Source of the DNA: a virus
IMG/VR virus record: IMGVR_UViG_3300048996_000028
Location: 1 to 49,406 of that record
Length of the DNA stretch: 49,406 nucleotides
Strand: one strand, 5' to 3'
Shown here: in pieces, positions 32,487 through 49,406 of the stretch
How positions within the stretch are numbered: the first letter of the stretch is position 1
Layout: every line of letters begins with the position of its first letter
Made by a program: the position numbers and the translations under genes
Notes under the pieces: generated by a model
Databases searched by the model: none
The model's input: the letters and a program-made list of their open reading frames with translations, nothing else
Told to the model about the DNA's origin: nothing

Positions 32487-34853
32487 TTACGTTGTTGCTG
32501 GGGCAACCACAATCGACCACCGGGAACCGGCGGCCATCGCAACATCCGAAGTGAACGTGCCGCCAGTGATAGCACCAGCCGCGACCACACCATCAGAGTC
32601 CCAGATACCGATCATGTTCGTGCCCGTACCGCCCTGGATAAACAAGTCCCGTTCGACTCGGCCGGCGCCCGGCGTTACCGCCGTCAACGCCGATTCCTTC
32701 GCCGCGAGAATGTTGATCACCCAACAGTCATCGACAGTCGCGCTAACATTCGGCATCACGTGAGTGACCGTACTAGACGACAACAGGTTCGATGCGAACG
32801 CGTTCACCGAAGAAGTTGGGTTAGCGCCGTGCCACGTGTGAACCTGGATAGCGCAACGCAAAGTCGTCGGCGTCGCCCACGACGCGTTAAACGTCGCGCC
32901 GGTGTCCGTACCCGCGCCGATCTTGTAAAGGACCGCCGTGGACGTAGTGCCACCATTCACCAGACCCAGCAGGGTCCAGCCTGCCGTAAACGTCGGGGTA
33001 GAGGTAAGTGCCGCGTTCCACTGACAGACAGCCAACACGAAATCGTTGGTCTGAATCGACGGGAGCGTCACACTTTGAGTGACAACGTTGGATACACCAG
33101 AGTTAGCGTTAGCCGACTGGCCGTTAGCGAGACCCGTTGGACCCGGGTCCTGCGTAGTCGTGCCGGCATTCCAGGCCGCAAGCGCCAGGGGCGAATCGTG
33201 CGGGGCCGTGTTGGAGGCGATAGCGTCCACATAAGAGAACTGGTCGCCGTTCCACCACATCACCGCCTCGAACTTGCCGGTTGACTTGAACCAGTTCAAG
33301 GCGTTCGTGATCCACGTTGCACGTTCCTGATCCGTGTACGAGCCCGCGATCGGACCGGTATAGGGGTCGTTGCCTGTGCGGCGCGTCAACGGGATGGCGA
33401 CCTCGGTGATAACCAGCGGGATACCCTTCGATGCCGCCCACGCATACCAGCGGGAGAACCCTTGCAGGTTCTGTACCGCGATCGGAGGATGTCCGGCCTT
33501 CCAGTCTTCCGCGTAAACGTCGATACCGAGAAAATCGATATCCTGCGGCATCCAGTCGTCCGGGTTAGCGGCCTTCTGGGAGAACCGTAGATCCCACTGG
33601 TACTCCATCGCGGCATACCCGATCTTGATATCCGGGTTAGCGGTCTTGCCGACCTGGTAGAACTGGTCGAACATCGCGACAAATTCAGGACCGGTCATAT
33701 CGTCTTCCGGTTCATGGAAGAGGATGACATACACGCCGTCAGGGCAGGACGCACAGAACGACGTGATCAAAGAGTCGTAGGCGCCGGCAGCCATACCAGT
33801 CCAGTCGTTACCCGGAGGCTTAACGGACAGCATGCTGTTTGCGCCGACTGCCGCGTCACCGGCCGCCGAATGGCTAGAGAAGTTCGCGGGCAGCGTCGAG
33901 CTAAACGAACGGCGAATAGTGCCGTTCATGACGCTGGCGGTCAGCGCCCAGTTGGTGGGGTTGTCGGCCGTGGGACGGTTCGTGTAGAACCCCCACTCAA
34001 TGACACCCTCGCCGGCCGGTACGTCCGCGACATCAACCCACCGGTCATGGTTCTGAATGTAGGCGCCGGGGCCCGTGTATGGGATCTCGACCGTGCCGTA
34101 ACCGGTGAACATGACATCCGCGCGGGCAGTAGGACGCGCCGGCCAACCGGTCGTCTCGTTGCGGCGCACGAAGCCGGCCGCGCCGGCGGGCATGATCTGC
34201 CACGTCTGCAACAGGGAAGGGTCCGCCGGTGGACCGGCAGGCCCGGCAGGGCCCTGAGGTCCAGGTATGGTGGATGCTGCGCCGGCAGGACCGGTGGCAC
34301 CTGCGGGCCCCGTAGGTCCCGTGTTGCCAGTCGGGCCGGCAACACCAGGGATACCTTGGATCCCCTGGATACCTTGCGCGCCAGCGGGTCCAGCGGGGCC
34401 CGCAGGCCCGGCAGGACCCGCGTCACCGCCACCAGGACCAGTAGGCCCCGGAGGACCCGCAGGTCCCGGAGGACCCGGGACGCGGACGTAGCCGGCGGAC
34501 GAAGGGATCGGCGCCAGTACCCCCAGGTTCAGGGGCGACCCGTCACCCGAGGGGACTTCGAAAGCCCACTGGCCACGGGTCCAATAGGAACCCGTTGACG
34601 TCAGCAACTTCTCTTCAAGCAGGTACGTGAACCCCTGCGACAACCAGTCACTGTCATCGTTGACAGGCAGGTCCAGAGTCCAGCCGCCCGCAGACAGCGT
34701 GACCGGGATAACTCCCTCAATCAAAGTCAGCCCGTTGGCTGCAATGATCTCTTCCGGGAGAGTGACGTAAACAGTTCCGGTGACACCCGAACCCGCCAAA
34801 TCCTGATAATCCAGGTAGACAGTTCGGGTGGTGAGGTCGCTAGGAAAAGACAC
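32487..34853 (-). CDS. Collagen-like tail fibre with glycoside-hydrolase-like domain
   Basis: The 788-residue protein has four parts: an N-terminal beta domain (about 1-120); a collagen-like Gly-X-Y tract (about 127-209) that should trimerise; a TIM-barrel-like region (about 240-570) with H380/E381/E383 (ILFHEPEDD) and E484 (LVITEVAIP), resembling the acid and nucleophile pair of clan-A hydrolases such as GH26; and a C-terminal beta sandwich (about 580-788). It could bind and cut cell-surface glycans. It lies after the portal gene, then four tRNAs follow. Confidence 0.75.
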
Positions 34854-34862
34854 TTACGCCCC

Positions 34863-36653
34863 TCAGACCGGTCGAGTTGTACGCGTGGACATGGACAGAT
34901 TCGGGTTACCGGTAGGGCCGGTGCCCGCGATGCTTTGAATCAGTTGCTCAGCCGGGCCCAAAGAACCCGTCATCGGTGCGCCCTCAGCGCCCCCGGCCTG
35001 GCCGCCCATAAGGGCCGCCATCGGATCCTGAGGTGCTCCCCCGCCGGCTGCCGCCAATTCTTCAGGTGATTGCTGCGGTGGCGGTGGGGGTGGCGGGAAC
35101 GCCGCCGCGACGGCATCCTCAATAGAGGCGCCCTTCTGCAACTTGACGATCACCTTGTTGACCTTCTGAACCAACTCGGTAGGATCGCCGCCCTGCATAG
35201 CCATCGCAGGGATAGCCTGAGGAAGCATTGCGATACTCGCCAAAAGCGAGTTACGGATCTGCTCGACATTGATGCGCTTCTGTTCACCAACCACGTCCAG
35301 TTCGAACGGCATCTGCCGCTGAACGGTGTCCACAGAGAACACGCCTGACGTGAGCCCCTGGAGCAGAAACACCAGGGAACGGTTGGGGTCAAGGCCGGCC
35401 GTCAGGCCGTACGAGACTGAACAGGTGTAGTCGCCGGCAATGTCACGAGACGGGCGATACTTCACCTCAAACGGGGCGCCGTCCTCCAGGCCACGAATGG
35501 ACTTCTCCACACTGGGCCACAGCGCTTCATCCAGTTCAAAGCAGATTGCAGCAACATCGGTCAGGCCGGACGCAATGCGTCCCTGCAATGTCTTGATGCG
35601 CGAGTCGTAGCCGGCCATGAGCGCCTGGACGCCCTTGCCGGTGATAATCGACGCATCCATATCGCCGTCACGCCCCTCAGGGTGACGCGACCCGATACGC
35701 AGCTCGTTCGCCATGTTCTGTAGCTCAACGAAAGGCTGGTTCGGGACAGACATGTCGACCTTGCGCACATTCTGTGGCTGGTCGGTGCGGATCTGCGCAT
35801 TCGGCCCGAACTGAACCTCCTGCGCATCCAGCGGAATAGCGGTCGGCGCGTTAGCGATATCCGACGCGATACGCATCGTGTACATCGCCATCTTCGCGCG
35901 GGCCATCTGCACCCACACCAGGTCATCAAAGGCGCCGCGAGTGTTGTCCCCAGTACGGGGACGCTCAACGACGACAACCCGGCACCGCTTAATCGGGTTT
36001 TCCATGGAGTGCAGCACAAGCCCAACCTGCGGAACAAGGACATAGTCATAGTCCTTGTCGTAATACCGGATGATCTCGATGTCTTCCTGCCGGCGCTCCT
36101 TCAGCGCCGTGAAAGTCTCAAAGTGTTCCGGGTATTCCCAGATAAGCTCCTGCACCGTACGCCGATAACACTTGGCGAACCACACGGTTTCGCCTCGACG
36201 GTTCAGGGCATAGTACGAATCCAATGCGGACTCAACATAGATACACGGCGCCTTAGCATCGTAGTCTGGGTCTACAACGAAGGCCGTGAATCCGTACGAC
36301 TCCAAGTGGTCTGCCGCCAGAATGTTCTGGTTGCCCAGCCGGGAGTGAGTGACATAGTGATTGATGATCTTCGTGCGCCGGTCCGCGCTCTTACGCGCGG
36401 CGTCCGTGTTCATGTTCGGGTTGGCGCAGGTGAAGGTGGGGAGAGGCGCGATAGCCTCGGCGGCGCTGCGGGCCGCCACGTCGATAAAGTTCGCGACCAT
36501 AGGTTCAGGGACCTCAGCCGGGAACATGCCCATCTGAACTTCGTCCCAGCGACCCTCACGGATCGCCTTAACCTGGTACATCTTTTCGCGGCGACCAGCA
36601 GACTTCTTACGCGCGATATCGATATTCGCGATAATCTGCTGAGTGGTGATCAT
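34863..36653 (-). CDS. Portal protein
   Basis: The 596-residue product follows the terminase in a 4-nt overlap. It has helical N- and C-termini, a central core (WEYPEHFETFTALKERRQ), and a glycine/alanine/proline/methionine-rich tail like large podovirus portals. It would form the dodecameric DNA channel at the capsid vertex. Assigned mainly by size and order between terminase and structural genes. Confidence 0.75.
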   Translation of the reverse strand: MITTQQIIANIDIARKKSAGRREKMYQVKAIREGRWDEVQMGMFPAEVPEPMVANFIDVAARSAAEAIAPLPTFTCANPNMNTDAARKSADRRTKIINHYVTHSRLGNQNILAADHLESYGFTAFVVDPDYDAKAPCIYVESALDSYYALNRRGETVWFAKCYRRTVQELIWEYPEHFETFTALKERRQEDIEIIRYYDKDYDYVLVPQVGLVLHSMENPIKRCRVVVVERPRTGDNTRGAFDDLVWVQMARAKMAMYTMRIASDIANAPTAIPLDAQEVQFGPNAQIRTDQPQNVRKVDMSVPNQPFVELQNMANELRIGSRHPEGRDGDMDASIITGKGVQALMAGYDSRIKTLQGRIASGLTDVAAICFELDEALWPSVEKSIRGLEDGAPFEVKYRPSRDIAGDYTCSVSYGLTAGLDPNRSLVFLLQGLTSGVFSVDTVQRQMPFELDVVGEQKRINVEQIRNSLLASIAMLPQAIPAMAMQGGDPTELVQKVNKVIVKLQKGASIEDAVAAAFPPPPPPPQQSPEELAAAGGGAPQDPMAALMGGQAGGAEGAPMTGSLGPAEQLIQSIAGTGPTGNPNLSMSTRTTRPV

Positions 36654-38623
36654 GTACCCGTCCGGTAATCATCCAAGCGAAACACAGCCGCCCTCGCCCT
36701 CTCTTGCGGCGACACCAAACCGCCGAAGCGGCGAGGCGGCGTCAATGTCATGAGCTTTGTCTTGTCCCGGGCGCCCACCTCGAAGAACCAGAGCGCCATA
36801 ACCATGTCGCACGGTGTCTTCTTAGGGTCCAGCTCAGGAGTCCAGATAGTTAGCTGCTGCTTCAAAGCACGCAGCCCGTCGTTGTCCATACGCGGCAGTT
36901 CGATCAACGGCGGCGAAATGCACTTGTGAGTGCCGTCTTCCATGTCCTGCCACACACCGAACAGCGGACTCATCGATGCCACTCCGAAGTTGACATCGAA
37001 CTTGTTCTTGCCGGTGTAGTGCGGAGTGAGACGTACGCCGCGAGCGTTCAACCACTGGTTCAACTCGAAATCCTGAGTGAACATCGTGAGCAGACCGGTC
37101 TTCTCGATCCGCCACTCGTTCACCCCGTACTCCATGGTGATCGCCTTGATACGGTTCTTCAACTCTTCCGGGGTCGGATGGTTGATGTTCCAGGCGTCAT
37201 ACAGGAAACGCTTATTCGATTCACGCTGAATAGCGCCCACGATGATGCCGGCATGCCCTGACGTGGCCGGGTCAACCGACCCGATCACATACACATCGTC
37301 CGGGACCGAGTACATCCCGCCCACACGGCCGGCCCGGCGGCCGTCATTCGTTGCCTCTGAGATTCCGTAAGACGGGAACGCCGCGTTACCCCCGACCTCT
37401 TGCTGCATATACGCCTGCAACCAGACGTTAGCGTCAAGGTCGTCCTTCACTGCACCGATGTGCAGCCCATCCCAACGTGGAAACAGCCCATCCTCGTCGC
37501 CGTGGCGACAATCATCGGTCTCGCACCAGCAGTCATCATTGTCCGAGTACCAACTAGTGGTGGCCCGAGGCCACAACGTCACCCAGCCATCCCGCGCACC
37601 AGTGTCATCCAGCACCGCCGGCTGAGACAGATACGTCCACGGCGACTTACCACTCTGGAAATTCTCAGGGTTTCTGAGCTGCCAATAAAGATCGGCTGGG
37701 GAGATGCGTGTGCCGATTACGCACACAACGCCGGAGGCGCCAGGGCGGGAGGAAACCTCAACCTGCAACCATCGCATCTGCTTAGCCCAGCCTGCCGCGT
37801 TCTCTCCGTCAACAGCGTCATCAACAAACACCCGGTCAAGGCGCTTGCCGTACACCTGACTGCCGAGACCCAACCCCTGCAATGTGGGGTCCTTATCAGA
37901 CGGGTCTCGATCCGAGGACGCGAGCCGAATACGTGCCGCCGACCACTCGTCGGCAGTAGCCAGAAAACCCCCTTCAGGGGCAAAGTCGCGGATAAGCTCG
38001 TGGTTATCGGGGTGCGTCAAACGGGTCTTGACGCCGTACACCATGTCTTCAGCCATATCCGACGTCTTCGAGATAATGGCGATCTTCACAGCCGGGTTGA
38101 TACAGATCAGATAGGTGACATAGTCCATGGTGACCACGGTCGTCTTGCCGTGGTTTGGGGGACAGTTGATCACCAGCTTGTTACGCCGGCCCTGCTCATA
38201 CACCTGGTTCTGGTGAAGGTCCCGAGGATCCTTCCCCTCCAACAGGTCAATCCACTGCATCTGGTGCGCGAACGTCCGTGACCGCAGATACTTCTCACGC
38301 CACGCCTCGAAACCCATGCGGCGCCACTTCGCCCGGTTCTCGTCACGAGTGTTCGTGTCAATCTTCCGGGTAGCCATGATCGTATCCACGGCAGCCCGGA
38401 ACTCCGGGTCGTTCTTGCGCCAGTACTCGTACGCCTTACGCGAGCGCCCCACGCGCTCGATAGCGGCCTGCACGTTGTAGCCGAGACCGATGTAGTCAGT
38501 GAACGCCTTCTTAGCCTGCTCCGGAGTGAACTTCCGGGTACCAGCCGAAACGCCACCCCGAGCCGACTTACCACTCATCGGGTTAATACCCCGAGACGAA
38601 ATCGGACTACCGGGCACAGCCAA
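36650..38623 (-). CDS. terL: Terminase large subunit with N-terminal TerS-like HTH
   Basis: The 657-residue product has its ATPase Walker A at about 154-161 (CPPNHGKT) and Walker B in DRVFVDDAVD; the RNase H-like nuclease starts at GSVDPATSGHAG. The first 95 residues add a helix-turn-helix (LGYNVQAAIERVGRSRKAYE) like small-terminase DNA-binding domains; no separate small terminase gene is visible, so recognition and cutting may be fused. GTG start with GGAGG six bases upstream. First gene of the virion operon. Confidence 0.88.
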   Translation of the reverse strand: MAVPGSPISSRGINPMSGKSARGGVSAGTRKFTPEQAKKAFTDYIGLGYNVQAAIERVGRSRKAYEYWRKNDPEFRAAVDTIMATRKIDTNTRDENRAKWRRMGFEAWREKYLRSRTFAHQMQWIDLLEGKDPRDLHQNQVYEQGRRNKLVINCPPNHGKTTVVTMDYVTYLICINPAVKIAIISKTSDMAEDMVYGVKTRLTHPDNHELIRDFAPEGGFLATADEWSAARIRLASSDRDPSDKDPTLQGLGLGSQVYGKRLDRVFVDDAVDGENAAGWAKQMRWLQVEVSSRPGASGVVCVIGTRISPADLYWQLRNPENFQSGKSPWTYLSQPAVLDDTGARDGWVTLWPRATTSWYSDNDDCWCETDDCRHGDEDGLFPRWDGLHIGAVKDDLDANVWLQAYMQQEVGGNAAFPSYGISEATNDGRRAGRVGGMYSVPDDVYVIGSVDPATSGHAGIIVGAIQRESNKRFLYDAWNINHPTPEELKNRIKAITMEYGVNEWRIEKTGLLTMFTQDFELNQWLNARGVRLTPHYTGKNKFDVNFGVASMSPLFGVWQDMEDGTHKCISPPLIELPRMDNDGLRALKQQLTIWTPELDPKKTPCDMVMALWFFEVGARDKTKLMTLTPPRRFGGLVSPQERARAAVFRLDDYRTGT

Positions 38624-38870: not shown

Positions 38871-39870
38871 TTGGCTGGTTCGGTAGTCACCTACACCAGC
38901 AGGGACTCCTCGTTAGTCACTCGGAGGGGGTTCCCATTATGTATAAGGGGTGAACTCACCCCCGTTCACCCCTCCAACCACCGTTGCCGGAAGCAACAAG
39001 TGCCCCCTGACCTGCACAAACACCCATATATAACAATCAGATAACGGGACACGCAAAACCTACCTGGCCCCGGTACCCAATTAACCACGCACCCGCAACC
39101 AGAGTCAGAGGAGGAGGAGCCGGCTGAGTTAAAAATGCGGGTCAATCGAACACACGTTCGATGTTGCATGCAGCAACGAATACAGTTGCTGAGGGCAAGA
39201 GAAACAGTTGCCGCTGGCAAGAGTGGACGCGTCAACCATGCGGTTGAGAGCGTGCTGGCACAACAAAACGCCATGTGCCCATCACCTATGGGCCCGAGGC
39301 AACCACATTGGTTGCGCATGGCCCCTATGTAGGGGCATCAAGCAACGACCATGCACCCCGTGGGTGTGGTTGAGCGCTCAACAGTGGCCCTTTGGCCAAC
39401 ACGCTTGTATACGGTGGGGGGGTATGCAGTGACGGCCTGAAGGTAACGCCGTACGCGTGATCCGGTCACGGTTTGATAACGGGTTGATAACTTCGTGCTG
39501 GTCGATAGTTGCATTGGTGGCGTGGCGGGGCAGTCTCTTCCTTGCACGACGGAGCCGACCCACTGAGGGTCAGCTCGCTAGGGTCTCTGGTTGTTGCTGA
39601 TGGCAACGGTCGGGCGGCTAACTGAATAGTGGAGCTAGCAAGTGTGGACAGTTCGGGTATGGCGAGAGTCCCCCGTAGGAGCGCACGTGAGTAGCAGGGA
39701 AAGGCCGTAAGGCGCGTCCCTCCCGTGTGTGGCCTGAAGTACGACTGATCCGAGGACCTAGCTGGGAGCACACGGTTTCCCGCTGTTGTGCTCCCGCTGA
39801 CGAGAGCTACCCCTGTGGTGGTGCACGCCGGAATACGGTCCGGCGTGTTCGATGATGGGGAGTGGTTGGA
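38871..39870. other. Non-coding regulatory region between virion and small-gene operons
   Basis: No convincing gene. AT-rich patches occur at 39029-39045 (ATATATAACAATCAGATAAC) and 39471-39492 (repeated TTGATAAC). Palindromes of type GTTGC-N5-GCAAC lie at 38983, 39163 and 39593, with imperfect copies at 39185 and 39207. CGAACAC-ACGTTCG sits at 39148-39161 and GTTGAGCGCTCAAC at 39369. Hairpins GGGAGCACA/TGTGCTCCC (about 39759-39793) and ACGCCGGA/TCCGGCGT precede the first small gene. Promoters for both directions, operators or an origin are likely here. Confidence 0.5.
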
Positions 39871-40017
39871 GTGAGCGTTGACATCTATGAGCGTGATGAG
39901 CACGGCATTGACGCCCTGGTGGTCACCAGGGTGGACGGGTCTCAGATCCGGCGTGCGGATTTCGTGACGTACCAGGCGTACCTGGATGCGTTGGCGGAGG
40001 AGTACGCGGAGCGTTGA
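39871..40017 (+). CDS. Small hypothetical protein, 48 aa
   Basis: GTG start with GGGGAGTGG upstream. Acidic product (SVDIYERDEHGIDALVVTRV) followed by a helical end. First of the rightward small genes. Its leader ends GATGATGGGGAGTGGTTGG, like the leader of the next gene. Unknown function. Confidence 0.55.
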   Translation: MSVDIYERDEHGIDALVVTRVDGSQIRRADFVTYQAYLDALAEEYAER

Positions 40018-40097
40018 GTGACGGTCGAGCGGCCTGCGGGCCGCTCTGTCAGCTACTCAAAGCTGAGTGGTTGCTTAGGGATGAGGGAGTGGTTGGG
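40018..40097 (+). promoter_or_regulatory. Stop-anchored double-hairpin leader, copy a
   Basis: Hairpin 1 GAGCGGCC/GGCCGCTC; hairpin 2 CAGCT-ACTCAA-AGCTG. Loop ACTCA is complementary to TGAGT formed by the upstream stop codon. Ends with AGGGATGAGGGAG before ATG. Confidence 0.65.
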
Positions 40098-40364
40098 ATG
40101 CAGGACATGGTGATTGGTGCGCGTGAGGAGTTCCGCGAGTCGGTTTCGGAGGGTTTCCACATGACGCGTTGGAACCGTGAGATCAACGGTGTGACGTACT
40201 CGTTCGTGCGGGTGATCAACGGCGGGGGTCACGCCGCGTTGGATGTGGTCCGGTTCGTGGCGGGTGACGGTGGTGTGCCGGTTCACACGTTCGCGGGGAA
40301 GGTGCGCGAGTTGCCGGGGCTGATGGCGTTCTCGGGCCAGTTGGGCAAGCTGCTGTCGTTCTGA
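40098..40364 (+). CDS. Hypothetical protein, 88 aa
   Basis: ATG 40098 is chosen from the leader GAGGGAGTGGTTGGG; an upstream GTG at 40014 would run through the hairpin element. The product begins MQDMVIGAREEFRESVSEGF and is beta-rich after residue 25. No family recognised. Confidence 0.6.
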   Translation: MQDMVIGAREEFRESVSEGFHMTRWNREINGVTYSFVRVINGGGHAALDVVRFVAGDGGVPVHTFAGKVRELPGLMAFSGQLGKLLSF

Positions 40365-40438
40365 GCCTGTTGGGTCGGGCCCATTCGTGGGCCCGTGCCT
40401 TGCACGCTGAGTGCGCTTAGGGAGAGGGAGTGAGTGTC
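40365..40438 (+). promoter_or_regulatory. Double-hairpin leader, copy b (exception)
   Basis: Hairpin 1 CGGGCCCA-TTCG-TGGGCCCG; hairpin 2 GCAC-GCTGA-GTGC. Its loop does not complement the upstream stop pentamer TGAGC, the only mismatch in the set. Ribosome-binding site AGGGAGAGGGAG. Confidence 0.6.
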
Positions 40439-40660
40439 ATGGGCAAGCGTTACGTGAGTGTCGGTGAGGTCGTTTCGGTAAAGCTGCCATGGTCTGAGGT
40501 GTGCATGTTCATGCGCGTCTCTGATCAGGTGCGACCGGTGAAGGTGCTGGCGGACGGTGCGCAGATCCTGAACGAGGATGGTTCGCCGTTTTCGTCTGCG
40601 GTGACACACGGCGAGGCTGGTTTCTACCGGGATGCGTCAGGCGTGTACGTCGTGGACTGA
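40439..40660 (+). CDS. Hypothetical protein, 73 aa
   Basis: ATG 40439 lies 8 nt after AGGGAG; GTG 40430 abuts the site and is less likely. Product MGKRYVSVGEVVSVKLPWSE is a small beta-rich protein. Unknown function. Confidence 0.6.
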   Translation: MGKRYVSVGEVVSVKLPWSEVCMFMRVSDQVRPVKVLADGAQILNEDGSPFSSAVTHGEAGFYRDASGVYVVD

Positions 40661-40736
40661 GTCACAGTCGAGCGGACCCCCGCAGGGGTCCGTTGGATCG
40701 GTCACTCAGGACCGATAGGGAGAGGGAGCAACGATC
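40661..40736 (+). promoter_or_regulatory. Stop-anchored double-hairpin leader, copy c
   Basis: Hairpin 1 CGGACCCC-CGCA-GGGGTCCG; hairpin 2 ATCGGTC-ACTCAG-GACCGAT. Loop ACTCA complements TGAGT at the upstream stop. Site GATAGGGAGAGGGAG. Confidence 0.7.
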
Positions 40737-41054
40737 ATGGCTGAGAACTTGATTCAGTGGGTTTCGGAGCGTGGCGTGTACAAGGCCGCGCCGGAGGCTG
40801 TGGAAGCGTGCATGGCGTACTACGCGGGGTGGGATGCTGACAAGCTGGCCGGTCTGGTGCAGCAGACCAGCGAGAACCCGGACGAGCGTGACGCGTCGTG
40901 GATGGCGCACATCGTGATGTTGGCGGAGTGGGGCCAGTACGGCAGTCAGCAAGCGACGTGGCGGGACCACAAGGAATGCAAGGGTTTCGACCCTACGTCG
41001 TCGTCTGCGGGGTGGCACTGCTACACGCACGACCTGTACAACCAGGAGAACTGA
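40737..41054 (+). CDS. Hypothetical protein, 105 aa
   Basis: Helical N-terminus (MAENLIQWVSERGVYKAAPE) and a tryptophan/histidine-rich C-terminus with two cysteines (KECKGF, WHCYTHD). Clean ribosome-binding site. No family recognised. Confidence 0.6.
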   Translation: MAENLIQWVSERGVYKAAPEAVEACMAYYAGWDADKLAGLVQQTSENPDERDASWMAHIVMLAEWGQYGSQQATWRDHKECKGFDPTSSSAGWHCYTHDLYNQEN

Positions 41055-41136
41055 GTCGTGGTCGGTGTCACAGGCAACCACCTGTGGCACCTGTCAGCCA
41101 CTCAGGCTGAAGGGATAGGGAGAGGTTGGGGTCTAG
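41055..41136 (+). promoter_or_regulatory. Stop-anchored double-hairpin leader, copy d
   Basis: Hairpin 1 CACAGG-CAACCA-CCTGTG; hairpin 2 CAGCC-ACTCA-GGCTG. Loop ACTCA complements TGAGT at the upstream stop. Site GGGATAGGGAGAGG. Confidence 0.7.
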
Positions 41137-41424
41137 ATGGTGATGCGGGTTAAGGCTGACCTGTTGGTGTGCACGGACTGTCTGACGTTCCTGTCGAACG
41201 GGACGGTGTTCGATGGTGACGGGATGGATGTCACCGGCGAGCATGGCGAGCGGATCGAAGCGCGCCACGACACGGCGGATCTGGCCAACATGTGTCTCGG
41301 CGGTGAGTCCCGTGGGTTCTTCCACGAGGACTGCGAGTGCGACGGGTGCGGTTCCAGCGAGTGTGGCGACCGGTTCACGGCGTACATCCTGGAAAAGGAC
41401 GCAGCGAATTCTATGGTGAGGTGA
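41137..41424 (+). CDS. Zinc-binding small protein, paralogue 1
   Basis: The 95-residue product contains CTDC near the N-terminus and CECDGCGSSEC near the end. It is clearly related to the next gene: both share K..LL.C.DC.T, then G..HG/HR.ERIEA and DLANM..GE.RG. A tandem duplication. Possible metal-binding regulator; function unknown. Confidence 0.65.
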   Translation: MVMRVKADLLVCTDCLTFLSNGTVFDGDGMDVTGEHGERIEARHDTADLANMCLGGESRGFFHEDCECDGCGSSECGDRFTAYILEKDAANSMVR

Positions 41425-41426
41425 GC

Positions 41427-41681
41427 ATGATGGGCGTCAAGGTGAAGGTGTTGCTGTGTGGTGACTGTGTCACGGTTGTTGCCGGTGGCACGTTGGTGTG
41501 TGGCAACGTGGATGAGACCGGGTTTCACCGTGAGCGGATGGAAGCTCTGTGGTCGCCGGTGGATCTGGCGAACATGATCACGGGTGAGCATCGAGGCTGG
41601 CAGGATGGCCCGGCGTGTGAGGGGTGTGGTGACGGCGCGGCTGGGGTGAGGTACGGCGGCGCCGTGTTGGATGGTGTGTGA
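41427..41681 (+). CDS. Zinc-binding small protein, paralogue 2
   Basis: ATG 41427, 2 nt after the stop of paralogue 1, and no hairpin leader between them. The 84-residue product has CGDC and CEGCGDGAAG. It is shorter at the C-terminus than paralogue 1. The pair is expressed as one unit. Confidence 0.65.
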   Translation: MMGVKVKVLLCGDCVTVVAGGTLVCGNVDETGFHRERMEALWSPVDLANMITGEHRGWQDGPACEGCGDGAAGVRYGGAVLDGV

Positions 41682-41758
41682 GCCACAGTCGAGCGTGCAA
41701 CCTTCGGGTTGTCCGTTCGCTCGGTTGCTCAACGCAACTGTAGGGAAAGGGGAGAACG
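41682..41758 (+). promoter_or_regulatory. Stop-anchored double-hairpin leader, copy e
   Basis: Hairpin 1 CGAGCG...CAACC-TTCG-GGTTG...CGTTCG; hairpin 2 GTTGC-TCAAC-GCAAC. GCTCA, in hairpin 2, complements TGAGC at the upstream stop. Site AGGGAAAGGGGAG. Confidence 0.7.
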
Positions 41759-42064
41759 ATGGATATTTGGGACATGGTCAATGCGCAGGTGGACGAGCTG
41801 AAGTCTGCGAAGTCGGCGGATGACGTGATGCGGATCCTGTCGCGTGAGCGGAACGGCCAGTGGCATGCCGGGTCCGGTGAGGGGTTCTTCGCTGGGTCCG
41901 GTGGTGACCGGTCGGTGCTGGGCGCCCTGTACGCGGCGGGGTGGCAGATGGCGTGGTCGGAGTCGCCCATCTACTACGTGCTTCGGGCCCCGAACGGTGA
42001 CCTGATCACGTACTGCGAGGGTGATGTAGATCGCGGTGCACCGCATGGTGTTCCGTTGGTTTGA
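41759..42064 (+). CDS. Hypothetical protein, 101 aa
   Basis: Product MDIWDMVNAQVDELKSAKSA starts helical, then WHAGSGEGFFAGSGGDRSVL and a beta-like C-terminus. No motif recognised. Confidence 0.6.
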   Translation: MDIWDMVNAQVDELKSAKSADDVMRILSRERNGQWHAGSGEGFFAGSGGDRSVLGALYAAGWQMAWSESPIYYVLRAPNGDLITYCEGDVDRGAPHGVPLV

Positions 42065-42146
42065 GCCACAGTCGAGCGTGCAGCCTTCGGGCTGCCCGTT
42101 CGCTCGGTTGCTCAAGGCAATCGTTAAGGGATAAGGGGTGAGTAGG
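42065..42146 (+). promoter_or_regulatory. Stop-anchored double-hairpin leader, copy f
   Basis: Nearly identical to copy e, but hairpin 1 is CAGCC-TTCG-GGCTG instead of CAACC/GGTTG, a compensatory pair change. Hairpin 2 GTTGC-TCAAG-GCAAT; GCTCAA complements TTGAGC at the upstream stop. Site GGGATAAGGGG. Confidence 0.7.
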
Positions 42147-42422
42147 ATGCAGAGCTTTACCGCGATGAGCGAGGAAGGCGTCAGCGCCGTTCTGGATGCG
42201 GCGATGGGTCTCGGTAGCGGCGGCTACGCAATGGTTCTGAAGGGCCAGGATCTGCAACTGATGATCCGTGCGCTCCAGGCCGCGTACGAGCACACGGCGG
42301 ACGGCGGATGTCCGTCGCTGGAGGATGGCGACGTGGCTAGCTACAACATGGTCACGGTGGATGAGTGGGCAGCCGACTTCCTGTCCGGGATGGCTGAGAC
42401 ATTGGGGATCGAGTTCGTCTGA
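42147..42422 (+). CDS. Hypothetical protein, 91 aa
   Basis: ATG 42147 preferred over GTG 42138 by spacing from AAGGGG. Helical acidic product (MQSFTAMSEEGVSAVLDAAM) with a C-terminal helix ADFLSGMAETLGIEFV. Unknown function. Confidence 0.6.
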   Translation: MQSFTAMSEEGVSAVLDAAMGLGSGGYAMVLKGQDLQLMIRALQAAYEHTADGGCPSLEDGDVASYNMVTVDEWAADFLSGMAETLGIEFV

Positions 42423-42497
42423 TCGGTAGTCGGGGCCACAAGCAACGGTTTGTGTCCCCTGTCGGCTGATCAGCCGGTTGAGAGAAAGGGTGGGGCC
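42423..42497 (+). promoter_or_regulatory. Stop-anchored double-hairpin leader, copy g
   Basis: Hairpin 1 GGGGCCACAAGC-AACG-GTTTGTGTCCCC; hairpin 2 CGGCT-GATC-AGCCG. Loop region GATCA complements TGATC at the upstream stop, a covarying pair. Confidence 0.7.
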
Positions 42498-42746
42498 GTG
42501 GGGGAAGTGAAACTGGACGTCACGTTCATGACGTTCTCAGAGGTGAAGGAAGGCCACATGGTTGAGCATGTGGGCGAGCGTGTACGCGTGGACAACATCC
42601 GTACGTACGCGGACGGCGAGAGGCGGCATGGGCCGTTCCAGGAGGGCCCTGCGATCGAGTTGGTGCACCGTCGTGGTTCGAAGTGGGGCGCGCCGGATAC
42701 GGGGGTCACGGTGTTCATGCATCGTGTGGTGCAGCCTACCGAGTGA
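42498..42746 (+). CDS. Hypothetical protein, 82 aa
   Basis: GTG 42498 after GAGAAAGGG; an earlier start would cross the hairpin. Beta-rich product (VGEVKLDVTFMTFSEVKEGH). No family recognised. Confidence 0.55.
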   Translation: MGEVKLDVTFMTFSEVKEGHMVEHVGERVRVDNIRTYADGERRHGPFQEGPAIELVHRRGSKWGAPDTGVTVFMHRVVQPTE

Positions 42747-42818
42747 GCAGTCGAGCGCACGTCTTGTACGTGCGTTCGTTCGGCCTACTCGGGTCGATAG
42801 GGAGAGGGAGTAAGGGCT
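42747..42818 (+). promoter_or_regulatory. Stop-anchored double-hairpin leader, copy h
   Basis: Hairpin 1 CGAGCGCACGT-CTTGT-ACGTGCGTTCG; hairpin 2 CGGCC-TACTC-GGGTCG. ACTCG complements CGAGT overlapping the upstream stop codon (shifted by two bases relative to other copies). Site GATAGGGAGAGGGAG. Confidence 0.65.
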
Positions 42819-43202
42819 ATGAGCATCGAAGCTGTAGAGGTCCCGGACAACGACGCACACATGGTGTTGAACGGGCGCCTGTGCAAGATCGTCACGGTTG
42901 TTGCCACGGTCAAGTTCTCGGCGTTCGTGTTCGCGGACAACGAGGGTGACGTCATCGTGACGGACCACCCACGCCCGGTCGAGCCGGAGCGTAAGCCGTT
43001 GGGTCATGTGATCGCGGAAGAGATCGCGGATGCGGTTGAGTGGCGGGCCGTGTCGGGCCACAACAGCCACGAGGGAACGGGACTCATCGCGATGGCGACG
43101 GACCCGGAGGTGTTCACCGTGCACATCGCGGACTCACCGCACGACTGGCAGGACAACGTGGTGTCGGCGGCGGACATGGTGCAGTACGAAACCGAAGGCT
43201 GA
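42819..43202 (+). CDS. Hypothetical protein, 127 aa
   Basis: Product MSIEAVEVPDNDAHMVLNGR is beta-rich and acidic, with a central basic stretch (RPVEPERKPLGH) and a helical C-terminus. No family recognised. Confidence 0.6.
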   Translation: MSIEAVEVPDNDAHMVLNGRLCKIVTVVATVKFSAFVFADNEGDVIVTDHPRPVEPERKPLGHVIAEEIADAVEWRAVSGHNSHEGTGLIAMATDPEVFTVHIADSPHDWQDNVVSAADMVQYETEG

Positions 43203-43280
43203 ACGACGGTCGGGGGCACGTCTAGCACGTGCCCTCTGTCAGCCGTTCAGGCTGGAACTAGGGATAAGGGGATGGTTGCA
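43203..43280 (+). promoter_or_regulatory. Stop-anchored double-hairpin leader, copy i
   Basis: Hairpin 1 GGGCACGT-CTAGC-ACGTGCCC; hairpin 2 CAGCC-GTTCA-GGCTG. Loop GTTCA complements TGAAC at the upstream stop, with hairpin 2 stems identical to copy d: loop and stop changed together. Confidence 0.72.
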
Positions 43281-43703
43281 ATGAGCAAGTTGGAAGAGCT
43301 GTTTACCCGGTTCGATGAAATCCAGGCGCAGCGCGTGTCAAACGCGGAACTGATCGAAGAACTCGACAACGGTTCGGCGCGTGACGCGGAACGGCGTGAA
43401 GACATGCTGGACGCGTGGGATCGGGGCGAGGCGGACATCTGTCACGAGCTGGTCAAGCTGCTGCGGCCGGAGTCGTTCGGCAACGTCGGTCCGGCGGTCG
43501 CACAGGCCGCCGAGATGCAGCGGCTCGGGTACGACGCGTTCGCTACGGCGGATGGCCGGATCACGGCGCACCTGACGGTGTCGCAGTCGCTGTTCATCCA
43601 GGGCGTGACGGCGGTCGCGAACACCCGGGAGGCTAAGCAGGCTGTGACGCCTCAGGCGCGGGTCACGGCGCACCTGCCCGCCGGTACGGCGGACGAGGTC
43701 TGA
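43281..43703 (+). CDS. Helical hypothetical protein, 140 aa
   Basis: ATG 43281 preferred over 43272, which abuts AAGGGG. Charged N-terminal coiled-coil-like segment (SKLEELFTRFDEIQAQRVSN) and an alanine-rich C-terminal half. Unknown function. Confidence 0.6.
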   Translation: MSKLEELFTRFDEIQAQRVSNAELIEELDNGSARDAERREDMLDAWDRGEADICHELVKLLRPESFGNVGPAVAQAAEMQRLGYDAFATADGRITAHLTVSQSLFIQGVTAVANTREAKQAVTPQARVTAHLPAGTADEV

Positions 43704-43705
43704 CA

Positions 43706-43930
43706 GTGGGCCGTCCGGGGAGATGGTTCGTGGTGGTACTGCGCGACAGTGCCAGCAACTCGTTGACGGTCCATGGTCCTGTGGGGTGGGAACGGGCGAA
43801 CAAGTTCGCGCAGGACATGCAGGCACTGTGGAAGTCGGAGCATCCGCCGACGAAAACGAAGACAGCGGATGTACGGCAGGCGCACGAGATGACGCGTGCT
43901 GAGGCGCGCCGTCGCGGATGGATGGACTGA
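43706..43930 (+). CDS. Hypothetical basic protein, 74 aa
   Basis: GTG start 2 nt after the preceding stop, without a hairpin leader. Product has VVVLRDSASNSLTVHGPVGW then a helical basic tail. The pattern (beta hairpin plus helix with lysines) recalls small DNA-binding folds but is not diagnostic. Confidence 0.6.
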   Translation: MGRPGRWFVVVLRDSASNSLTVHGPVGWERANKFAQDMQALWKSEHPPTKTKTADVRQAHEMTRAEARRRGWMD

Positions 43931-44017
43931 GTTGGTAGTGAGGATGTTGCGTCCGGCCCCCGGGTACGCTCGGGGTCCGGCGCGTTGCACACTCAGTGCA
44001 AGGGAAAGGGGATGTTG
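43931..44017 (+). promoter_or_regulatory. Stop-anchored double-hairpin leader, copy j
   Basis: Hairpin 1 GTCCGGCCCC.../...GGGGTCCGG with a longer loop; hairpin 2 TTGCAC-ACTCA-GTGCAA. Loop ACTCA complements TGAGT at the upstream stop. Site AAGGGAAAGGGG. Confidence 0.68.
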
Positions 44018-44257
44018 ATGACGAAGGTACAGACAGATCAGGATCTGTTCGCTGCCGGCCGGCGTGCGGTTTCGAAGGGTCAGTGTGACTCGCTGATCGT
44101 CGCCACGGATCAGCAGGGCGAGCGGAACTATCACCAGTGCATCGGTTCCGGGAAGGCGCACAAGCACTGGTGCGGGTGCGGCCAGTCGTGGCACGGGTCG
44201 CACACGGACGGGCCGTTGCGGGACGTTGTACGGGCCGGTGAGGGCGCGCAGAACTGA
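44018..44257 (+). CDS. Cysteine/histidine-rich protein, 79 aa
   Basis: ATG 44018, 6 nt after AAAGGGG. The C-terminal half contains HQCIGSGKAHKHWCGCGQSW with further histidines, suggesting a zinc site. Unknown function. Confidence 0.6.
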   Translation: MTKVQTDQDLFAAGRRAVSKGQCDSLIVATDQQGERNYHQCIGSGKAHKHWCGCGQSWHGSHTDGPLRDVVRAGEGAQN

Positions 44258-44389
44258 GATCGACCCTTCACACAGGGTGACAGTGTGTGGTAGATGTACA
44301 GGTTCGGGGCAGGAACGTGAAGCGGACGGGCTCACGTTCCTGCTCCGTGCCGGTATACCGCCGGTAACGGTCGAAAAGGGGTGGTTGTT
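44258..44389 (+). promoter_or_regulatory. Atypical hairpin leader
   Basis: A strong 12-bp stem GCAGGAACGTGA with its complement (about 44311-44345) precedes CGGTATACCG and the site AAAAGGGGTGG. No loop complementary to the upstream stop was found, so it is related in position only to the ten leaders before it. Confidence 0.5.
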
Positions 44390-44551
44390 GTGGGGAATGA
44401 CTCGCACCTTCCGAAGTACGGGGAGGGTCCGAAGCACGAGATTGTGACGGACACGATCCCGCCGCCGCGCACTAGGCGCGTGTGGCCGGTTCTGAAGTCG
44501 GCGCAGGACGTCGAGCGAGAGCAGTGGGCGCGTGCCGTCGAAACATCGTGA
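44390..44551 (+). CDS. Small hypothetical protein, 53 aa
   Basis: GTG start after AAAAGGGGTGGTT. Polar product (GNDSHLPKYGEGPKHEIVTD) with a basic/proline segment and a charged C-terminal helix. Overlaps the next gene by 20 nt. Confidence 0.5.
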   Translation: MGNDSHLPKYGEGPKHEIVTDTIPPPRTRRVWPVLKSAQDVEREQWARAVETS

Positions 44552-49375: not shown

Positions 49376-49406
49376 GGTGGGGCCGTTTCGTTTGGGTTGG
49401 GTCGCG
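49376..49406. repeat. 31-bp terminal direct repeat, right copy
   Basis: Identical to 2-32. It begins inside the right arm of the last terminator (49375-49387) and runs through GTTTGGGTTGGGTCGCG to the end. Confidence 0.9.

Follow-up and report, generated by a model that had tools for sequence, protein, structure and literature searches.

Repeated intercistronic RNA leaders in a soil phage operon are predicted to form pseudoknots anchored at the upstream termination site

The window analyzed here is the whole of a 49.4-kb IMG/VR virus record (IMGVR_UViG_3300048996_000028), in which a plus-strand operon of small genes, with its first start at 39862, contains ten copies of an RNA leader at its internal gene junctions. 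The leader order is an upstream strand (P), hairpin 1 (H1), hairpin 2 (H2) with the loop sequence P', and a purine-rich Shine-Dalgarno sequence (SD). An initial annotation described ten leaders built on one common plan, all of which are present with their parts as described, and further claimed that in nine of them a pentamer at or beside the H2 loop is complementary to the pentamer containing the upstream stop codon. The H2 loop is the exact reverse complement of 5–7 bases at the upstream stop in nine of the ten; leader b is excepted, and in leader h the pairing strand touches the TGA by one base only. The distance from stop to start is 72–87 nt, H1 begins ∼10 nt past the stop, the SDs are AGGGAGAGGGAG, AGGGAAAGGGG and similar, and a weakly conserved GTCGAG lies between P and H1, the equivalent of which is GATGG in the Beephvirinae phages introduced below. 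Coordinates run from P through the last base before the start codon, as stated for leader a.

39790..39861 (+): first-cistron leader, ahead of gene 39862-40017; a single hairpin (CACGCCGGA/TCCGGCGTG) plus an SD, without H2 and without a pseudoknot
40014..40097 (+): leader a; P 40014-40019 TTGAGT, H1 40027-40046, H2 40049-40066, loop P' 40055-40060 ACTCAA, SD GAGGGAG
40362..40438 (+): leader b, the one without a match; stop pentamer TGAGC, H2 40402-40414 with the non-complementary loop GCTGA
40657..40736 (+): leader c; P 40657-40662 CTGAGT, P' 40704-40709 ACTCAG, SD AGGGAGAGGGAG
41051..41136 (+): leader d; P 41051-41056 CTGAGT, P' 41100-41105 ACTCAG
41679..41758 (+): leader e; P 41679-41683 TGAGC, P' 41727-41731 GCTCA
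42061..42146 (+): leader f; P 42061-42066 TTGAGC, P' 42110-42115 GCTCAA
42420..42497 (+): leader g; P 42420-42424 TGATC, P' 42468-42472 GATCA
42739..42818 (+): leader h; P 42739-42744 CCGAGT, sharing one base with the TGA at 42744-42746, P' 42787-42792 ACTCGG
43199..43280 (+): leader i; P 43199-43205 CTGAACG, P' 43244-43250 CGTTCAG
43927..44017 (+): leader j; P 43927-43932 CTGAGT, P' 43991-43996 ACTCAG, with a larger H1

The sole alternative pair in leader b is CTGAGC with GCTTAG, which contains one G·U pair and lies outside the loop, beside the SD; this leader may be decaying or may use that pair. Permutation of the loops within the window reached the observed match in 6 of 2000 and 2 of 2000 trials, and a looser optimization of H1, H2 and P reached it in 328 of 5000, which is not decisive. 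The result thus varies from clearly unlikely to unremarkable because four copies have TGAGT in common, and it depends on the freedom allowed in choosing H2. The window by itself supports the pairing, short of proof.

Relatives of the window supply the comparative evidence. Its terminase gene (36650-38623, minus strand) encodes a protein with 36–39% identity to the terminase of Beephvirinae Streptomyces phages (Manuel, Stella, FlowerPower, Immanuel3, WRightOn and others) and 80–84% identity to that of several uncultivated contigs; the source phages are soil phages related to this known Streptomyces phage group. The leader plan recurs as arrays in named Beephvirinae and in many IMG/VR contigs. 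Locus L006, whose terminase is 81% identical, carries the same array on the minus strand, the pairs being TGAGT/ACTCA, TGAGC/GCTTA (one G·U) and a new one, TGACT/AGTCA; in the more distant L008 the plan recurs with CATGC/GCATG and CGGGC/GCCCG a few bases past the stop. Among the intergenic gaps of eight sequenced Beephvirinae, in which the SD is CAAGGGAGAGAG, the plan is found repeatedly, with the pairs CTAGCA/TGCTAG, CTAGTG/CACTAG, CCAGTG/CACTGG, CCGAGT/ACTCGG, CTGAGC/GCTTAG and CCGTGC/GCACGG. Further contigs with leaders (L034, L049, L068, L076, L077, L080, L084, L089, L103, L137, L165, L198 and L215) add GATGTGA/TCACATC, GCAGTGA/TCACTGC, AGGACTA/TAGTCCT, CTGTAG/CTACAG, CTGAACA/TGTTCAG and others. 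Homologues at the same junction, for which no search of the pairing is needed, have changed on both sides: WRightOn has TAGCT/AGCTA, Manuel CGGCT/AGCCG and Immanuel3 TGGCT/AGCCA. Likewise, RosePharie has CCAAGT/ACTTGG and L077 has CCGAAT/ATTCGG at junctions whose downstream gene products are 92.6% identical.

The pairing was assessed by permutation across junctions picked blind to P: each had to lie between two open frames, the first ending in a stop, and to contain a purine-rich SD and a strong H1. Each was scored by how long a Watson-Crick match the 26 nt preceding H1 could make with any hairpin loop before the SD, and own partners were compared with swapped ones. Matches of at least 6 bp occur in 59 of 177 junctions in the first set, against 8.9 ± 2.8 when partners are swapped (maximum 19 in 5000), and in 80 of 281 junctions in the enlarged set, against 11.6 ± 3.3 (maximum 25 in 3000); the latter includes 52 distinct P sequences and 20 loci with two or more matching leaders. 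Since the leaders are related by descent, these shuffle figures are not exact probabilities. In the first set all matches fall in array-bearing loci (59 of 143, against 0 of 34 elsewhere), a split that is partly circular in that the array list was made after earlier scans. Bacterial loci merely bearing the same SD, taken as a negative control, give no match in 36.

When the match is sought anywhere after H1, 66 of 89 fall within a hairpin loop, whereas other positions of that stretch would predict 9.5; H2 and P:P' would therefore coexist as a pseudoknot. The initial annotation had left the choice between a pseudoknot and an outer helix: the pseudoknot stands, and the nested outer helix is disfavored, having been rejected on this position of P'. 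A real pseudoknot in which the upstream strand P pairs with the H2 loop is strongly supported by these sequence comparisons, and the combination of a loop, an external strand, and compensatory changes is that expected of a predicted H-type pseudoknot. Other approaches were less informative. An early blind scan that demanded a strict SD and chose a single hairpin was noisy (18 of 63, against 6.6 ± 2.2), and a loose scan for P in all loci gave 284 hits compared with 204 in reversed sequence; the conclusions rest on the permutation tests because of this high background. MAFFT alignments of the leaders either misaligned P' or contained too few sequences, and the SD motif alone is unusable as a marker, with chance occurrences in many genomes.

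The stop codon itself had been proposed as the pairing partner, which describes nine of the ten window leaders and 42 of 76 leaders overall when the end of the longest upstream open frame is taken as the stop. P starts 3–14 nt past the first base of the stop in another 22 and lies elsewhere in the other 12, some of these being misassigned stops. The start of P relative to the stop has a median of −1 and a 10–90% range of −5 to +13, and TGA, TAG and TAA all serve as stops. The stop codon is apparently a frequent, non-obligatory partner, and the anchoring would be to the termination site. Of 24 P sequences that do not overlap the stop, 17 still include a stop triplet, compared with 26% of random 6-mers from the same regions (leaders in L013, L015, L034, L049, L068, L076, L080 and L084); these triplets are mostly out of frame in the cases checked and may be a relic of ancestral overlap or a back-up stop.

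Leaders of first cistrons give a clue to function. Those of the window, of L006 and of the Beephvirinae inspected have a hairpin and a similar SD but no convincing pseudoknot, indicating that the pseudoknot is dispensable for initiation as such and is tied to internal junctions. This fits a link to upstream translation. The SD has an unpaired probability of 0.56, compared with 0.48 when the upstream sequence is shuffled, and is more open than its own control in 41 of 58 leaders, in nested folding that does not include the pseudoknot; since the SD is slightly more open than in the control, the element does not bury it, which in this model argues against simple coupling by melting to expose the SD. 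H1 has a predicted strength of −13 to −20 kcal/mol, and P:P' as an isolated duplex −3 to −8 kcal/mol.

We tentatively favor, at somewhat less than even confidence, a cis-acting RNA element that acts at the internal gene junctions of one phage operon as a termination-linked insulator or gate. The proposed element is an H-type (loop-to-linear-strand) pseudoknot of about 5–8 bp with H1 inserted between its strands, immediately 5' of an SD resembling a start-associated sequence (SAS). In most leaders the ribosome finishing the upstream gene would cover P, so that the pseudoknot could form only before its arrival or after its release. Once formed, it would be a folded barrier separating the stop from the next SD and blocking post-termination scanning or re-initiation, while the downstream SD would stay open to new 30S subunits, and translation of each cistron could thereby be set separately. 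A barrier that is gone during termination and back afterwards would act as an insulator or gate, a reading drawn from the first-cistron leaders, the open SD, the strong H1, and the covering of P. In a synthetic operon of E. coli, structures right behind stop codons reduce re-initiation (PMC7518266).

Some observations weigh against this reading. In window leaders a, e and i the SD is more folded than in the shuffled controls, and in ∼45% of leaders P does not overlap the stop; gene ends simply packed against the element could place P near the stop and explain much of the overlap. Structures of the ribosome termination structure (RTS) type are reported to be depleted inside operons (PMC7518266), whereas the leaders lie inside one. 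The same anatomy would also serve coupling, mRNA protection, or protein binding.

Positive translational coupling, the mechanism put forward in the initial annotation, in which the pseudoknot inhibits downstream initiation until a ribosome at the stop melts it, so that downstream expression depends on upstream termination, is unlikely but is the strongest of the alternatives. The location of P inside the footprint of the terminating ribosome in most leaders and the lack of a pseudoknot where there is no upstream gene are both consistent with it, and coupling by unfolding is established for other gene pairs (PMC12548453). However, masking of the downstream ribosome-binding site is not seen, the SD being unsequestered in the nested folding described above, and each cistron has a strong SD of its own, with a start codon at a median of 75 nt past the stop, far beyond efficient re-initiation distances. 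Insulation seems at least as likely as coupling, and an insulator or gate remains the reading we infer from the sequences.

The restriction of the repeats to internal junctions and the strength of H1 together with the pseudoknot would also suit a role in mRNA protection or processing, in which the structure stops a 5'-to-3' exonuclease or marks an intercistronic cleavage to give separate stable messages. This is less probable than coupling, as no conserved cleavage sequence was seen and the anchoring of P to the stop is left without explanation. More doubtful still is recognition of the fold by a phage or host protein that regulates the operon, in the way that T4 gp32 recognizes its pseudoknot. 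A regulon is suggested by the repetition of one fold within a single operon, and the weakly conserved bases between P and H1 are a further point in favor; however, no candidate protein was identified, and the primary sequence varies nearly everywhere, so that shape would have to be recognized. A self-cleaving ribozyme was rejected on the lack of an Rfam match and of all but a trace of an invariant core.

The closest described elements are the SAS and extended SAS (ESAS) of cluster K mycobacteriophages, which likewise are repeated directly 5' of the starts of many small genes in actinophages and include a conserved purine-rich sequence. The ESAS is a 17-bp imperfect inverted repeat of conserved sequence, the SAS core is GGGATAGGAGCCC, and the authors found no support for RNA pairing in the ESAS, which later work reads as a SigA-like promoter (PMC3203893, PMC11373665). 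In contrast, the leaders vary in sequence while pairing is kept, and have two hairpins and a pseudoknot. The difference from SAS/ESAS stated in the initial annotation is borne out: the ESAS copies of Anaya, on direct reading, all share a single palindrome with promoter-like TTGACA boxes and no P-H1-H2 plan. Compared by eye, neither the window nor the Beephvirinae SDs match the 13-nt SAS GGGATAGGAGCCC within two mismatches, and ESAS membership was rejected, the leaders having no sequence-conserved 17-bp inverted repeat with a short spacer and TTGACA-like boxes and keeping complementarity only. An operator or promoter repeat that acts as DNA, in the manner of the ESAS, might be suspected from the inverted sequence repeated upstream of starts; it is very improbable, given that the leaders conserve complementarity and not sequence (52 distinct P) while the Anaya copies keep their sequence without this plan. 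Motifs resembling SAS/ESAS in Microbacterium cluster EF also occur as ten copies in intergenic gaps with a conserved ribosome-binding motif and a weakly conserved upstream sequence; compared by description only, they differ in that this sequence is centered on GTAGAG and no RNA structure is described (PMC7302621). The RTS shares with the leaders a stable RNA structure immediately after the stop and a proposed insulation against re-initiation, and window leaders have such a structure in H1; however, it denotes folding in general, with no family, no pseudoknot and no arrays, and its reported depletion between operon genes is a further difference (PMC7518266).

Long-range or loop pairing upstream of the ribosome-binding site controls translation in the plasmid repZ/repY leader, T4 gene 32, and E. 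coli rpsO and rpmI-rplT, and control of repZ involves termination of the upstream open reading frame. These are single sites in unrelated genes, whereas the leaders are one fold at many junctions with private complementary pairs. The spacing of rpmI-rplT is given in PMC12548453. Only tRNAs in the window match Rfam release 15 at gathering thresholds, a sub-threshold search of 39400-44500 gave no credible match, and the open literature on Streptomyces phage pseudoknots, Beephvirinae, and intercistronic pseudoknots, subscription papers not being covered, holds no description. The leader is apparently an undescribed RNA element within the broad known kind of cis-acting translational pseudoknots. 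An only slightly more tentative proposal is that it represents a new intercistronic class, in which the upstream termination site is one strand of the pseudoknot, folding reports on the terminating ribosome, and each copy on most long operon junctions has a private lock-and-key pair.

Covariation is extensive and the element occurs in cultured Streptomyces phages (Manuel, Stella, FlowerPower, Immanuel3, Abafar, WRightOn, Dennebes and RosePharie), which makes it directly testable, and the differing complementary pairs of the copies should make swap-and-restore experiments unusually clean. The leader could reveal how phages insulate or link adjacent genes in one message, a question of translation re-initiation, and could supply orthogonal insulators for actinobacterial operon design.

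The operon genes tested belong to no Pfam family and gave a single weak PHROG match to which no function is assigned, and the small protein encoded at 41137-41424 has no relative among the viral contigs. The untranslated region ahead of the first gene is strongly conserved between the window (39600-39860) and L006 (8735-9010, minus strand), in blocks AACTGAATAGT...CCTCCCGTGTGTGGCC...TGTTGTGC.CCCGCTGACG; it matches no Rfam family and may hold a promoter plus another structured RNA. In Beephvirinae L012-L020, CTCTTTCCCCCCTTGT (or CTCTCTTCCCCCCTTGT) occurs in the 5' region of the operon, for example just upstream of it on the minus strand of L012, and CTCTCTCCCCC occurs in the large-hairpin loop of one later leader, for example at 38179-38054 (minus strand) of L012. 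These are largely complementary to the common SD CAAGGGAGAGAG and could sequester SDs in cis or in trans. Elsewhere in the window, an identical 31-base sequence, GGTGGGGCCGTTTCGTTTGGGTTGGGTCGCG, is present at 2-32, after one base, and at 49376-49406, which suggests a complete, circularly assembled genome. A 788-residue protein encoded at 32487-34853 on the minus strand contains collagen-like triple-helix repeats (Pfam PF01391) and is possibly a tail fiber.

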